Assembly (NCBI RefSeq): GCF_027595985.1
Contig: NC_073302.1
Span: forward strand, 217,713,854 to 217,777,853
DNA: 64,000 nt
Origin: Sorex araneus
Taxonomy: Eukaryota; Chordata; Mammalia; Eulipotyphla; Soricidae
Direction: 5' to 3'
Shown here piece after piece: positions 1-60,099 of this stretch. The notes beneath the pieces are model-generated. The model was not told the DNA's origin. It did not search any database and saw nothing but the letters and a program-made list of their open reading frames with translations. How positions within the stretch are numbered: position 1 is the stretch's first letter; each line of letters begins with the position of its first letter. A program made the translations under genes and the position numbers.

Positions 1-656
1 ACTAACATATGCTTCAGAGACCTGGGCCCTATGCAAACAGGATGAGAATGCTGTTAGGGTATCCCAAACAGGAATCGAAAGAGCTATGCTGGAAATATCA
101 TGTCTCACTCAAGTGAGAGAAGGAATCCGAAGTTTTGGCCTCCGTCGACAGTCAAAAACAAGATGCTGGGGGCTGGAGTGATAGCACAGCGGGTAGGGCA
201 TTTGCCTTGCACGCAGCTGACCCGGGTTTGATTGCCAGCATCCCATATGGTCCCCTGAGCACCACCAGGGGTAATTCCTGAGTGCAGAGCCAGGAGTGGC
301 CCCTGTGCATTGCCAGGTGTGACCCAAAAAAGCCAAAAAAAAAAAAAAGATGCTCTCTTGTTTGCCAAGGCATGAAATATCAGATGGGCTGGTCATGTAA
401 TGCGATTCAGAGATGACCGCTGGACTAGAATTCTAACCAACTGGATTCCACGGTATGTCAGAAGACCTCGTGGCTGCCCACTAACTAGATGGTCATATTT
501 CTTTGTCAAATCCCTAAATGAACGATTTGAGGCTCTTCTTGTTTCTGGAGCAAGCAGATACCATTGGGCTGCACTAGCACGCGACAGGGACAAATGGAGA
601 CGTTACTGGCGCCCGCCCAAGCAAATCGAAGATCAACGTTACTACAAGTAATTTTT
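1..656 (+). mobile_element. RTE-clade LINE (RTE1-like), 3' end, running off the left edge
   Basis: The C-terminal part of an RTE-type non-LTR retrotransposon ORF, split by a SINE at 168-347. Before the SINE the plus strand reads peptides such as ETWALCKQDENAV and RGIERAMLEISCLTQVREG. After it one open frame (400-651) gives MRFRDDRWTRILTNWIPR, then FFVKSLNERFEALLVSGAS and LARDRDKWRRYWRPPKQI. This conserved C-terminal block is shared with the copies at 4917-5690, 35707-36880 and 44494-44812. The 3' end lies near the ACTACAAG at about 643-650, a shortened version of the short-repeat tail of the other copies. Similarity to nematode RTE proteins is from memory of the family. Confidence 0.88.
168..347 (+). 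mobile_element. Shrew tRNA-derived SINE inserted in the RTE copy
   Basis: Full-length SINE with tRNA-related head (box B-like GGTTTGATTGCC), CATCCCATATGGTCCCC body, GTGTGACCC motif and a poly(A) tail. It is flanked by the direct repeat AGATGCT (161-167 and 348-354). Removing it restores the RTE sequence, so it inserted after the RTE copy. Confidence 0.92.
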
Positions 657-4790: not shown

Positions 4791-4916
4791 AATAACTGAG
4801 CAGTTTTGCATCAGGACTTCTCCTTCCCACAACCTCCACTGTGTGACCGACCACTCCAGCAGCTGCCTCTACACTTTTCTATCTGAACCAATTCCAGTTG
4901 CATCACAGATTTACCA

Positions 4917-5690
4917 CTTGTATCACTTGTCCTCCTGTTGATCTCCAATTTGCTCAAGCGGGCACCAGTAACATCTCCATTTGTCCCTGTTGTGCACTAG
5001 TGTAGCCCAATGATACCTGCTCGTTCCAGGAACAGGAGAAGCCTCAAACCATTCATTCGGGTTTTTGACAAAGAAGTCTGATCCTCTCATTGGTGGGCGG
5101 CCATGTGGTCTATTGACGTCCAATGGAATCCAGTCGGTAACAGTTCTAGTACTGCAGTCATATCTGAATTACATTATATGTCTGGCCCATCTGATTTTTG
5201 ATGCCTTGGCAAACGAGACAGCGTCCCTGATTCTTGACCGTCAATGCAGGTCAGAACTCCGGATTCCTTCTCTCACTTGAGTGAGATGTGATTCTCCTAG
5301 CATGGCTCTTTCAATTCCTCTTTGGGATATCCAAATAGTGTTCTCATCCTGTTTGCGTAGGAACCAGGTCTCTGAGGTGTATGTTAGTGCAGGAAGAACA
5401 GTGGAATCGAAAAGATGTGCCTGGAGTTGGAGGTTCTTTGTTCTCTTAACCACTTCTTCAACACTCTAGAAGGCGTCCCACGCTGCTCTCTTCCTCTGTG
5501 CAGTTCTGGCGACAAGTCGTTCCTCATGTTGAGTTCTCGACCCAGGTACACATAGCTACAGCATTTGAAGATGTTCATTCCATTGAGAGCAAATGGAGCA
5601 TCAGGGACTAGTTCATTTTTCATGAGCATCGTCTTGTTGAGATTCAGCTGCAGTCTGACCTTTCCACACTTGTGGTTGAAGTCGGCAAGC
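4917..5690 (-). mobile_element. RTE-clade LINE (RTE1-like), 5'-truncated copy with target duplication
   Basis: Minus-strand RTE ORF 3' region in three frames: from 5692 leftward MLADFNHKCGKVRLQLNLNK and YVYLGRELNMRNDLSPELH, then ALTYTSETWFLRKQDEN and RGIERAMLGESHLTQVREG, then DVNRPHGRPPMRGSDFFVK and NRDKWRCYWCPLEQIGDQQ. The 3' end carries the short repeat motif ACAAGTGATACAAG (complement at 4918-4932). The 8-bp direct repeat ATTTACCA occurs at 4909-4916 and 5691-5698, so this is a discrete 5'-truncated insertion of about 770 bp. Confidence 0.9.
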
Positions 5691-32260: not shown

Positions 32261-33222
32261 CTTTTTTTATGGTGCACAAGGATTCCATTTTATTTTTTTT
32301 TTAATTTTTTATTGAGTCACCATGTGGAAAGTTACAAAGTTTTCAGGTTTAAATCTCAGTTATACAATGCTCGAATACCCATCCCTTCACCAGTGCTCAT
32401 ATTCCACCACCAAGAATCCCAGTATAGCTCCACCCCGCCCCCCCACACCCCTAACCCCCCACGCCCTTAGCCCCCCACCCTTAGCCCCCCCGCCTGTGTA
32501 ACTAATAAATTTCACTTTACTTTCACTTTGATTGCATACAATATTTCAACAAAACTCACTATTATTGTTTGAAGAGTCTCTCCCCTAAAGTCAGACCTGC
32601 TGAAAAGGAAGCATTAGATAATTTGTTTTCCATTGCTGAGGATGAAGAGGTATGAGGTCGAGTGACCACACTTAGCGGCCTCTCAGTTTTGGGTTTCTGT
32701 AATTTAGTATTTTAGTAACTAAGTCCAGAGAGATATCTGCCAGAAGTTGCATCGTTGCCAACTTGTACTTCTCAGTTACATTATATTCCACATATGAGTG
32801 CAATATTTCTATGTCTGTCTCTTTCTTTCTGACTCATTTCACTCAACATGATACTTTCCATGTTGATCTATTTATATGCAAATTTCATGACTTCATGTTT
32901 TCTGACAGCTACATAGTATTCCATTGTGTAGATGTACCAGAGTTTCTTTAACCAGTCATCTGTTTTGGGGCACTCTGGTTTTTTCCAGATTCTGGCTATT
33001 GTAAACAGTGCTGCAATGAACATAGAAATACATATGCCATCTCTACTATACCGTTTTGCCTCTCCGGGATATATTCCCAGGAGTGGTATTGCTGGGTCAA
33101 ATGGAAGCTCAATTTCTAATTTTTTGAGAATCGTCCATATTGTCTTCCAAAAAAAAAAATATGGAACGCTTCACGAATTTACATGTCATCCTTGTGCAGG
33201 GACCATGCTAATCTTCTCTGTT

Positions 33223-33254
<32 letters not shown>

Positions 33255-33261
33255 GGAGCAC
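32261..33261 (-). mobile_element. U6-L1 chimeric retrocopy (U6 snRNA joined to L1 3' end), minus strand
   Basis: On the minus strand a full U6 sequence (33261 down to 33155) is joined to the L1 3' region (ORF2 end and 3' UTR, 33150 down to 32282), ending in A-rich sequence. The unit is flanked by a 17-bp direct repeat with one mismatch: TTAAATTAATGATTTTC (32244-32260) and TTAAATTAATGACTTTC (33262-33278). So it entered as one event. This is the known class of U6-L1 template-switch products. After the first A-tract there are about 20 extra bases (complement of ATGGTGCACAAGGATTCC) and a second A-tract. Confidence 0.9.
33155..33261 (-). pseudogene. U6 spliceosomal snRNA pseudogene (part of the U6-L1 chimera)
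   Basis: The minus strand starts GTGCTCCCTTCGGCAGCACA and continues TATACTAAAATTGGAACGA, then AGAGAAGATTAGCATGG and GTGAAGCGTTCCATATT, i.e. U6 from first to last base with about six substitutions by eye. The altered positions and retroposed setting, with target duplication around the whole chimera, argue against a functional U6 gene. No U6 promoter elements (PSE, TATA at -30) were seen upstream. Confidence 0.9.
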
Positions 33262-35275: not shown

Positions 35276-35700
35276 TGTTGGGCCTGGACTGAGCTACCAG
35301 GATGAGCCCAGTGGTTTGGATGAGGTTGAACATATTCTTTTGGCTGCCTTAGTAAATAATTTCCTAATTATAACAAAATTGTCAGTCTTCCTTTTCTCAC
35401 AGATCCCTGGTTCTGCTTAAGCCTGTTTGTTGTCAGTATGCAGATCATAGGAACTAAGCCTGTTTGTTGTCAGTATGCAGATCCTACATTGTTTGTTTTC
35501 CCATATGCAGAAGAACTTTGCATGATCTTCCCTTAACTCCTTTGACGACTGTATTGTGCCCTTAAGAGTTTCCATGATCAATAAAAGGAGATTGTGGGGC
35601 TCTCTACCTTTGTCTAAGAGTCAGAGAGAACCTAGACCCTCCATGAAATACATTTCTCCCTTGTCTCAGCGCCTCTGACCGCATGGACATTCATGCAACA
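35276..35700 (+). repeat. 3' LTR of the ERVK provirus
   Basis: Starts TGTTGGGCCTGGACTGAG and ends TTCATGCAACA. Collinear with the 5' LTR, including the duplicated TTTGTTGTCAGTATGCAGAT module and AATAAA (35580-35585). It is about 33 bp shorter than the 5' LTR. Confidence 0.93.
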
Positions 35701-35706
35701 GGCAGA

Positions 35707-36880
35707 GCACTAGATGAAGGAGAACCATGCGAGCAAGCCAGATTCTGAAAAGGATTCAGCACGATCGACCATATCCACGACAGTGACCAAGCTCTTTGAG
35801 GTTTTGCAAGAGTTCAAGATGCCACTCTGTCTAACGTTTATTGTTTCAAGAAGGCCTTTTATTCTGTTGAGACTGAAGCAGTCACTGAAGCCCTTGCCAA
35901 ACAGGGTGTTAAAACTCAATACATCAGGATCATCCATGAGCTGTATTACAGATTCACCTCCAGGATCTCACCTTTCTACAAGAAGTGATCATTGACGTAA
36001 AGTGAGGGGTCCGGCAGGGTGACACCATTTCACCTAAACTCTTGAGTGCCACCCTCGAGAACATCATGCAACGACTGGAATGGGAAGGAATGGGAGTTAA
36101 GATAGACGGTCAGCAACCACACTACCTCTGCTTCACTGATGACATTGTTCTCATAACACCAAATATCAGCCAGGCGGCACGAATGCTGGCCGACTTTAAC
36201 CCTTAGTGTGGAAACTAACTTCAGTTTCATCAGCTAAAGCTCATGAAGACAATGTTCATAAAAAACGTCCTGGTGGGGCCGGAGCGATAGCACAGCGGGT
36301 AGGGCGTTTGCCTTGCACGCGGCCGACCCGGGTTCGATCCCCGGCATCCCATATGGTCCCCCAAGCACCGCCAGGAGTAATTCCAGAGTGCAAAGCCAGG
36401 AGTAACCCCTGAGCATCGCTGGGTATGACCCAAAAAGCAAAAAACAAAAAACAAAAAACAAAAACGTCCTGGTTCCTGATCTTCCATTTGCCCTCAATGG
36501 AACAAACATCTCGAAATGCAGCAATTATGTGTACCTAGGTCGAGAACTCAACATGACAAATGGCCTGGCACCTGAACTGTGCAAGAGGAACAGAGCAGCG
36601 TGGAATGCTTCAAGAGTGTTGAAGAAGTGGTTAAAAGGGCGAAGAACCTCTGGCTCCAGGCACATCTTTTCTCCTCCACTGTTCTTCCTGCACTAACAAC
36701 CGCATCAGAGACCTGGGCCCTATGCAAACAGGATGAGAATGCTATTTGGGTTTCCCAAAGAGGAATCGAAAGAGCTATGCTTGGAGTATCATGTTTCACT
36801 CAAGTGAGAGAAGGAATCCAGAGTTCCGAACTCCGTTGATGACCTAGAATCAGGGATGCGGCTCATTCTATCAAGGTATC
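35707..36880 (+). pseudogene. RTE-clade LINE (RTE1-like), central part: reverse transcriptase, continued after the provirus
   Basis: It resumes the RTE ORF with stops and shifts: SDSARSTISTTVTKLFE-like sequence, then KKAFYSVETEAVTEALAKQG (about 35848-35910), HELYYRFTSRISPFY and GVRQGDTISPKLLSATLEN (36008-36065). The catalytic box reads FTDDIVL (36132-36153; family usually FADDIVL). Then LNGTNISKCSNYVYLGRELN (36494-36555) and SETWALCKQDENAIWVSQR follow. A SINE lies at 36275-36459. The ORF is cut again at about 36880 by the L1 and continues at 44494. Confidence 0.9.
36275..36459 (+). mobile_element. Young shrew SINE inserted in the RTE LINE
   Basis: Nearly consensus copy with all head CpGs intact (CACGCGGCCGACCCGGGTTC) and an (AAAAAC)n-type tail. 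Flanked by the 14-bp direct repeat AAAAACGTCCTGGT (36261-36274 and 36460-36473). It can serve as the local reference for the family. Confidence 0.95.
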
Positions 36881-44493: not shown

Positions 44494-44812
44494 AATCAGG
44501 GAACACTCTCATTTGCCAAGGTGTCAAAAATCAGATGAGCTGGACACATGATGCGATTTAGAGATGACTGCTGGACTAGAGCTGCTATTGACTGGATTAC
44601 ATGGGACATCAAAACCCTCCATGGCTGCCCACCTACGAGATGGTCAGATTATTTTGTCAAGACCCTGAAAGAACAGTTTGAGGCTCTTCGTGTTCCTGGA
44701 GCAAGCCTACACTAGCACATGACAGGGACGAATGGAGGTATTACTGGCACCCTCTCAAATAAATCGACAAACAATGGATGGCAAGTGATACAAGTGATAC
44801 AAGTGATGGTTT
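44494..44812 (+). pseudogene. RTE-clade LINE (RTE1-like), 3' end, continued after the L1
   Basis: It picks up where the 36880 segment stopped: FAKVSKIRWAGH-like sequence, then MMRFRDDCWTRAAIDWITW (44545-44600), RWSDYFVKTLKEQFEALRV and a degraded C-terminus. It ends in tandem TGATACAAG units (GTGATACAAGTGATACAAG at 44785-44812), the short 3' repeat typical of RTE elements. Confidence 0.88.
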
Positions 44813-49830: not shown

Positions 49831-50031
49831 AACACAAGTTCAATCCCTCACATCCACTGTATCCCCAAGAACCACCAGTGGTGATTCCTGAGAACAGAAC
49901 CTGGAAAAATCACTGAGCTTCACACCAAAATAAAAAAAAAATAAAATAAAAAAGGACAGGATAGTGAAAGGAAGCATAGTGTCCAGGAAGAAATAGAGCT
50001 TGAAGAGAAAAATTCCTTTCAGAAGTTTTAG

Positions 50032-50271
50032 CACTGTCATCCCTTTGTTCATTGATTTGCTTGAGCAGGCACCAGTAAAGTCTCCATTGTGAGACTTATT
50101 GTTACTGTTTTTGGCATATTGGATAAGCCACGGGTAGCTTGCCAGGCTCTGCTGAGCAGGCAGGATATTCTCAGTAGCTTGCTGGGCTCTCCGAGAAGGA
50201 CGGAGGAATCGAACCCGGGTCGGCCACGTGCAAGGCAAACACCCTACCCCCTGTGCTATTGCTCCAGTCCT
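50032..50271 (-). mobile_element. Chimeric SINE: shrew tRNA head with an RTE-derived 3' tail
   Basis: The minus strand starts GACTGGAGCAATAGCACAGG with box B GGGTTCGATTCC, as in the common shrew SINE. It then has a different body (GAGAGCCCAGCAAGCTACTG, AAGCTACCCGTGGCTTATCC, ACAGTAACAATAAGTCTCAC) and ends AATGGAGACTTTACTGGTGC, CTGCTCAAGCAAATCAATGA, ACAAAGGGATGACAGTG. The last 55-60 bases match the RTE LINE 3' end at 592-640 (AATGGAGACGTTACTGGCGC, CCGCCCAAGCAAATCGAAGA). Flanked by the 10-bp direct repeat GAAGTTTTAG (50022-50031 and 50272-50281). Confidence 0.88.
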
Positions 50272-50309
50272 GAAGTTTTAGAAAGAATGAAAATAACTAA
50301 CAGACGATA

Positions 50310-59835: not shown

Positions 59836-59847
59836 TCAGAACATAGT

Positions 59848-60082
59848 CACTGTCACTGTCATCCCGTTGCTCATCGATTTGTTCAAGCGGGCACCAGTAA
59901 CATCTCTCATTGAGAGACTTATTGTTACTGTTTTTGACATATCCAGTATGCCACGGGTAGCTTGCCAGTGCAGGCGTGATACTCGGTAGCTTGCTGGGCT
60001 CTCCCAGAGGGGCGGAGGAATTGAACATGGGTTTGCCGCGTGAAAGGCGAATGCCCTACCACTGTGCTATCGCTCCAGCCCA
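59848..60082 (-). mobile_element. Chimeric SINE: shrew tRNA head with an RTE-derived 3' tail (second copy)
   Basis: Same architecture as 50032-50271. Minus-strand head GGGCTGGAGCGATAGCACAG, body with GAGAGCCCAGCAAGCTACCG, and tail AGATGTTACTGGTGCCCGCT, TGAACAAATCGATGAGCAAC, GGGATGACAGTGACAGTG. The tail matches the RTE copy at 4930-4985 (complement: GGAGATGTTACTGGTGCCCG, CTTGAGCAAATTGGAGATCA). Exact 12-bp direct repeat TCAGAACATAGT at 59836-59847 and 60083-60094. The two copies differ from each other more in the body than in the head. Confidence 0.9.
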
Positions 60083-60099
60083 TCAGAACATAGTAAGAG

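Follow-up and report, generated by a model that had tools for sequence, protein, structure and literature searches.

The window, as we call the whole stretch of 64,000 nucleotides of Sorex araneus DNA that was analyzed, carries two copies of a SINE that is a chimera: a 66-nt head of the Sor type is followed by about 117 nt from the 5′UTR of an RTE-type LINE, by about 53 nt from the 3′ end of this LINE and by a short-repeat tail. On balance, we favor a history in which an RTE that was exchanged with nematodes gave rise to a headless element consisting of the RTE 5′UTR and the RTE 3′ end (henceforth mini-RTE), in which a template switch joined this mini-RTE to Sor, and in which the product grew into a major, undescribed SINE family of a mammal, with on the order of 10^5 copies that account for 1-2% of the genome.

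The two copies in the window are 79.6% identical to each other (Table 1). In a preliminary description of this DNA they had been recognized as separate insertions with perfect target duplications of 10 and 12 bp, and direct reading of the sequence confirmed their coordinates as well as their structure.

Table 1. Parts of the two SINE copies, and RTE fragments of the window (positions are those of the window).
Feature	Position	Strand	Basis or remark
RTE C-terminal fragment (1-170 and 349-650), presumed partner LINE	1..650	+	Sor SINE between the two parts
RTE C-terminal fragment	4915..5438	-	extends to ~5710 by translation
RTE fragment, part of the reverse-transcriptase domain	35700..36880	+	Sor SINE at ~36281-36450; left end approximate
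RTE C-terminal fragment ending in a separate short-repeat tail	44500..44810	+	GATACAAGT units
Copy 1, target duplication (3′ copy in SINE sense)	50022..50031		GAAGTTTTAG, read directly; a duplication scan recovers the same
Copy 1, entire	50032..50271	-	perfect 10-bp target duplication
Copy 1, RTE 3′ end (final codons of its ORF) with short-repeat tail	50032..50088	-	alignment to RTE copies
Copy 1, body from the RTE 5′UTR	50089..50205	-	colinear with the mini-RTE consensus and with the 5′UTR of L224
Copy 1, Sor-type tRNA-derived head	50206..50271	-	comparison of consensus heads (65/66 identical)
Copy 1, target duplication (5′ copy in SINE sense)	50272..50281		GAAGTTTTAG
Copy 2, target duplication (3′ copy)	59836..59847		TCAGAACATAGT
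Copy 2, entire	59848..60082	-	perfect 12-bp target duplication
Copy 2, RTE 3′ end and ACAGTG tail	59848..59909	-	alignments to the consensus and to RTE 3′ ends
Copy 2, body from the RTE 5′UTR, shortened by small deletions	59910..60017	-	BLAST against the consensus body, 80.7%
Copy 2, Sor-type head	60018..60082	-	BLAST to the consensus; comparison of consensus heads
Copy 2, target duplication (5′ copy)	60083..60094		TCAGAACATAGT

The family is large. We sampled the assembly (2.41 Gb, 65 contigs) with 20 stretches of 10 kb placed at round coordinates, and the 190 kb without N in this random sample contained 14 near-full-length SINE copies. Extrapolation of this count gives about 177,000 copies in the genome (95% Poisson range 97,000-297,000), which at 240 bp per copy would correspond to roughly 1.8% of the genome, that is, to an order of 1-2%. 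A 28-mer from the SINE body is present in 2643 exact copies genome-wide, while its reversed control yielded 0. A genome search with the SINE returned 6433 first-look candidates, and the 40 that were scored are, with the exception of the window's own copy, 88-91% identical and nearly full length. For the study of tails and insertion sites we pooled 66 SINE copies with enough flanking sequence from the window, from the random stretches, from query-similar loci and from loci selected with the 28-mer; 48 Sor copies served as the control.

The Sor SINE of shrews was reportedly described by Borodulina and Kramerov in 2001. The head of the SINE studied here is tRNA-derived and represents a predicted pol III promoter with A and B boxes. 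When the consensus of 16 copies of the SINE was compared with that of 52 Sor copies from the same 254 kb of sequence, 65 of the 66 head bases were the same. The sequence shared with Sor stops where the B box ends (GGTTCGATTCC); the best local match past the head is 11 nt long and includes one mismatch. This agrees with the ordinary shrew tRNA-derived head that the preliminary description had attributed to the SINE. Sor differs from the SINE in its unrelated body and tail, in the A-rich nature of the latter and in its L1-like target sites; neither the Sor body nor the A-rich tail was found in the SINE when we searched for them by consensus comparison and in the tails of the 66 copies. The covered parts of the literature link Sor to shrews and to Sorex araneus (PMC11240701; PMC7279448), and one of these studies used it as a control that is expressed in HeLa cells after transfection (PMC7279448).

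The head might have been drawn independently of Sor, from the tRNA gene from which Sor itself once originated, in which case the fusion would not have involved Sor RNA. Sor heads are still tRNA-like, as seen from the fact that ARAGORN calls one of them a tRNA-Ala, and the head is the sole part of the SINE in which such a comparison can be made. We nevertheless consider an independent origin unlikely in view of the near-identity of the two consensus heads and the greater abundance of Sor in the same sequence (52 vs. 16 copies), and we prefer Sor as the donor of the head.

At the opposite end of the SINE, the last ~53 bases are those of the end of the RTE ORF (...RDRDKWRRYWRPPKQIEDQR), and the repeat tail follows. 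An alignment of the last 60 bp with RTE had been proposed in the preliminary description. With local RTE copies as the reference, the 3′ end of the SINE consensus reached scores of 46-83 against RTE-type 3′ ends, of which three lie in the window and two in random stretches (L141, among these five, is a 75-nt piece at a stretch edge and maybe a mini-RTE), well above the shuffle maxima of 25-33 (2000 shuffles each). Ten further genomic RTE 3′ ends, fetched from 40 matches listed, match the SINE end as well. The tail had been described as TGACAG repeats in place of poly(A). It is indeed a short repeat, and the predicted lack of poly(A) was borne out, as 0/66 SINE copies vs. 27/48 Sor copies have 8 consecutive A in the 45 nt past the core; the repeat unit, however, is mostly (C/A)TACAGTG, of which the ACAGTG of copy 2 is a variant. 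The motifs ACAGT or CAGTG occur within 25 nt in 53 of the 66 SINE copies and in none of the 48 Sor copies.

The middle part of the SINE is also found in elements without the Sor head. Three of them, present in random stretches (L142, L148 and L156), consist of the SINE middle, a spacer and the RTE 3′ end. A genome search with L156 yielded 4320 candidates, of which 40 were scored; eight of these 40 were fetched, and inspection by eye showed that all eight lack the Sor head and have the body, the spacer and the RTE 3′ end. From base 67 of the SINE to its tail, the mini-RTE consensus runs colinear with it, except that the SINE lacks one stretch of ~85 nt and has a 3-nt gap.

The source of this middle part became apparent from the regions upstream of RTE copies, ten of which were fetched from C-terminal matches and then eight from 40 scored reverse-transcriptase matches. 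In the first ten regions, the body was never found in front of the RTE ORF. Locus L224, in contrast, carries body and spacer in the sense orientation ~30 nt upstream of the start of the ORF (KMTVCTFNTRTLASEASIKDL...); its 5′UTR matches the SINE body with a score of 127 (maximum of 500 shuffles: 30), and the match opens at the very base (CTCC) at which the SINE body opens. The last 101 nt of an L224-type 5′UTR precede the same ORF start in L223, and a 42-nt piece of it is located at the edge of the stretch in L221. The 5′UTR is therefore present in the sense orientation in just 3 of 18 upstream regions, and the body part is present at length in L224 alone. Read across frames, the ORF of L224 and L226 matches the endonuclease family PF03372 with 30.7 bits (cut-off 24.5); RVT_1 reached 27.4 bits on longer RTE readings, which is below its cut-off of 29.6, and no RTE domain was detected by Pfam on short RTE fragments. 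Because L224 carries the body ahead of an ORF that reads as an endonuclease, the middle ~117 bp of the SINE are RTE 5′UTR, and the RTE-derived share therefore comes to ~170 of 240 bp. Hence, the RTE-homologous 3′ terminus of the preliminary description stands with the ~53 bp that align with RTE ends, but not as the 55-60 bp to which the RTE contribution had been confined.

In its simpler form, the scenario proposed at the outset held that a Sor SINE took only the 3′ tail of an intact RTE and that its middle is unrelated host sequence. Although the ~53 bp of the 3′ end would by themselves suffice for recognition by RTE, this version is highly improbable: the body matches the RTE 5′UTR, so that L224 already refutes it unless this locus has itself been rearranged, and the SINE and the mini-RTEs have derived bases in common that are mostly absent from RTE copies. 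What persists of the proposed tail capture is the presence of the RTE 3′ end; what has to be added are the RTE 5′UTR and the mini-RTE-like bases.

These bases indicate an order of steps. The diagnostic base in GA[A/G]CAAC is G in 11, A in 2 and T in 2 RTE copies (n = 15, with the row of L141 maybe representing a mini-RTE), A in 9 and T in 1 of the mini-RTEs (n = 10), and A in 47, G in 7 and T in 1 of the SINE copies (n = 55). Likewise, the tail form ACAAG is found in 14/15 RTE copies, 0/10 mini-RTEs and 0/55 SINEs, and the form ACAGT in 2/15, 9/10 and 50/55, respectively. Since the derived states are common to the SINE and the mini-RTE, an intact LINE was probably not the direct source of the SINE; a route from RTE to mini-RTE and then to a fusion with the Sor head is likely, and a mini-RTE that gained a Sor head fits better because the SINE combines the RTE 5′UTR with the derived bases of the mini-RTE. 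According to this scheme, the mini-RTE (5′UTR plus 3′ end) would have come first, already equipped with the altered bases that the SINE now displays; a template switch at or near the RTE 5′ end would then have fused it to Sor RNA, at the cost of ~85 nt of the 5′UTR. That two different sequences, a 5′ extension of mini-RTEs (see below) and the Sor head, join at the start of RTE suggests that template switching at this site made the joins.

Distances to the consensus, calculated without CpG sites, range from 0.033 to 0.134 (median 0.080) for 16 SINE copies from the window and the random stretches and from 0.038 to 0.147 for 10 mini-RTEs, eight of which had been picked by similarity to L156. Five RTE C-terminal copies are 0.078-0.160 from their own five-copy consensus, too few for an age order of SINE vs. 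RTE. Pairwise distances obtained with a cruder filter are similar (SINE median 0.247; RTE mostly 0.18-0.33, with one 37-site value left out). The mini-RTE at L193 carries in its tail a SINE copy in reverse orientation; SINEs were therefore still mobile after this mini-RTE had inserted.

The sites of insertion provide a separate line of evidence. A recognizable target duplication is present in 28 of the 66 SINE copies and is lacking in the other 38, compared with 6/644 among mismatched flank pairs. The duplications are 9-16 bp long with a median of 12, whereas the Sor control has duplications in 33/48 copies with a median of 17, and 31 of these 33 measure 14-22 bp. An A-rich start of the duplication (at least three A in the first four bases) is found in 1/28 SINE and 27/33 Sor duplications (Fisher p ~3e-10). 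Upstream of the SINE, T occupies 61% of the sites at each of positions −12, −11 and −10 and 71% at position −1, against a background of 34%. The target signature reported for the RTE clade, in the covered part of the source, is a run of T about 10 bases upstream together with T before and A after the cut (PMC13295347). The fit of the SINE to this signature is partial because the T-A pair at the cut is no commoner in the SINE (8/28) than in Sor (11/33), T being as common as A as the first base of the SINE duplication. Of the RTE-type target preference expected in the preliminary description, the T-run and the T at −1 are thus present, and the A as the first base is not. Its central claim, a SINE with a Sor head and an RTE 3′ end, holds, and the SINE inserts in a manner unlike that of the L1-type Sor with respect to duplication length, duplication start and tail.

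Mobility driven by RTE is therefore supported by the insertion signatures, and we have little doubt that the enzyme which copies the SINE RNA is that of the RTE LINE residing in the same genome, very probably RTE1_Sar. Since the SINE is built from the promoter end of Sor and both ends of RTE, it most likely spreads by means of the RTE enzyme. The RTE protein would recognize the RNA 3′ end that is common to SINE and RTE, and would prime reverse transcription of the SINE at its own nick sites. That L1 instead moves the SINE as it does Sor, with the RTE-derived part as a mere passenger, finds some backing in the head common to both elements and in the fact that duplications of 9-16 bp are possible with L1. 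Such a mode of transfer is nonetheless very hard to reconcile with the contrasts between SINE and Sor in long A-runs of the tail and in A-rich duplication starts, and we consider it most improbable.

As to the partner of the SINE, an 88-aa piece of the window RTE has three protein matches, and the sole match with a name belongs to Haemonchus contortus (52% identity). RTE1_Sar, an RTE that is abundant in Sorex araneus and has relatives in nematodes, was reported together with an exchange of RTE between shrew and strongylid nematodes, in the covered part of the study (Dunemann and Wasmuth, 2019; PMC6542046), whose text makes no mention of SINE, tail or UTR. The arrival of the RTE from another phylum, as assumed in the preliminary description, is supported by that study and by the Haemonchus contortus match. 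The RTE of the window is very probably RTE1_Sar, which would be the presumed autonomous partner of the SINE. It is scarcely credible that the RTE parts derive from a more ancient RTE of mammals (BovB-like or similar) instead of the nematode-type element, as the SINE end fits RTE copies of the same genome, the material used for this comparison, nearly base for base, and the Haemonchus contortus match belongs to the same RTE.

The design of the SINE is already known from the AviRTE SINEs of birds and in part from Bov-tA and the Afro SINEs, as far as the sources were covered (PMC4844689; PMC3747384). The AviRTE SINEs (ManaSINE1, GymnSINE and others) comprise a promoter head and pieces of the 5′UTR and 3′UTR of a transferred RTE (Suh et al., 2016; PMC4844689), and hence exhibit the same combination of a promoter head with a bipartite tail from an RTE shared with nematodes; the counterpart of their 5′UTR piece follows the head in the shrew SINE (L224, partly L223). 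They differ in RTE, host and head, as the shrew SINE has that of Sor, and the RTE 3′ end of the shrew SINE is mostly coding (last codons) rather than 3′UTR. The copy number of the shrew SINE is far above the 141-8,306 copies reported for avian AviRTE itself (PMC4844689). In ruminants and elephant, a tRNA-headed SINE is paired with a headless element listed as "5′-end of RTE": Bov-tA/Bov-A2 are grouped with Bov-B, and AFRO SINE/RTE1-N1_LA with RTE1_LA (Ohshima, 2013; PMC3747384, Table 1). The SINE and the mini-RTE of the shrew likewise form a tRNA-headed and a headless element beside one RTE, although the RTE lineage is another one. The word shrew is absent from the text of that article (PMC3747384).

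We found no description of the shrew RTE-tailed SINE in the openly accessible literature that was searched, although repeat libraries such as Repbase or Dfam may well already contain so large a family. If our reading is correct, the SINE is a mammalian counterpart of the AviRTE SINEs in which each step of SINE birth can be read in one genome; the order of these steps is readable because RTE, mini-RTE and SINE coexist and have derived bases in common. Within the parts of the literature covered, only AviRTE offers an earlier independent instance of SINEs that carry both LINE ends and descend from an RTE common to a vertebrate and nematodes; the mammalian host and the very high copy number would be new. 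The A-tailed Sor, with its equivalent head, offers an internal control for the role of the 3′ end in setting which LINE copies an RNA and at which site the RNA lands.

Several observations on the mini-RTEs and RTE copies accompany these results. The mini-RTEs of L190-L197 possess an extension (..ACTGATGTACCTAAAGCAGCACACATGTGTTTGGTTTTAACATAC..) on the 5′ side of their RTE-derived part; it recurs in part, without RTE, at L204:451-795 (71-73% identical), and resembles part of some other repeat, perhaps an LTR, that was fused to the mini-RTE. In L148:3296-3501, a mini-RTE displays another internal junction, from the 5′UTR to a longer RTE 3′ coding end, hinting that such deletion products arose repeatedly. 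A search for a ribozyme in the RTE 5′UTR (Rfam, E up to 1, eight mini-RTE loci) found none; its five matches were all under the gathering scores, and four fell on one stretch of L194. The ten upstream regions from C-terminal matches include SINE insertions (L199 and L202) and a mini-RTE insertion (L204). In L225, an RTE ORF start lies reversed upstream of an RTE copy, perhaps through a 5′ inversion or as a second copy.

The shrew SINE was also considered in viral contigs, where a 14-mer is found in 109 IMG/VR stretches; these matches are due to chance, because BLAST reveals no SINE in the 109 stretches (best match 31 bp, E 0.004). Within the window, the sole tRNA call by ARAGORN (tRNA-Ala, 174-246) is the head of a Sor SINE inside an RTE fragment, and a U6 snRNA copy on the minus strand at 33155-33261 scores 111.6 bits against a gathering score of 44 and is either a gene or a retropseudogene.
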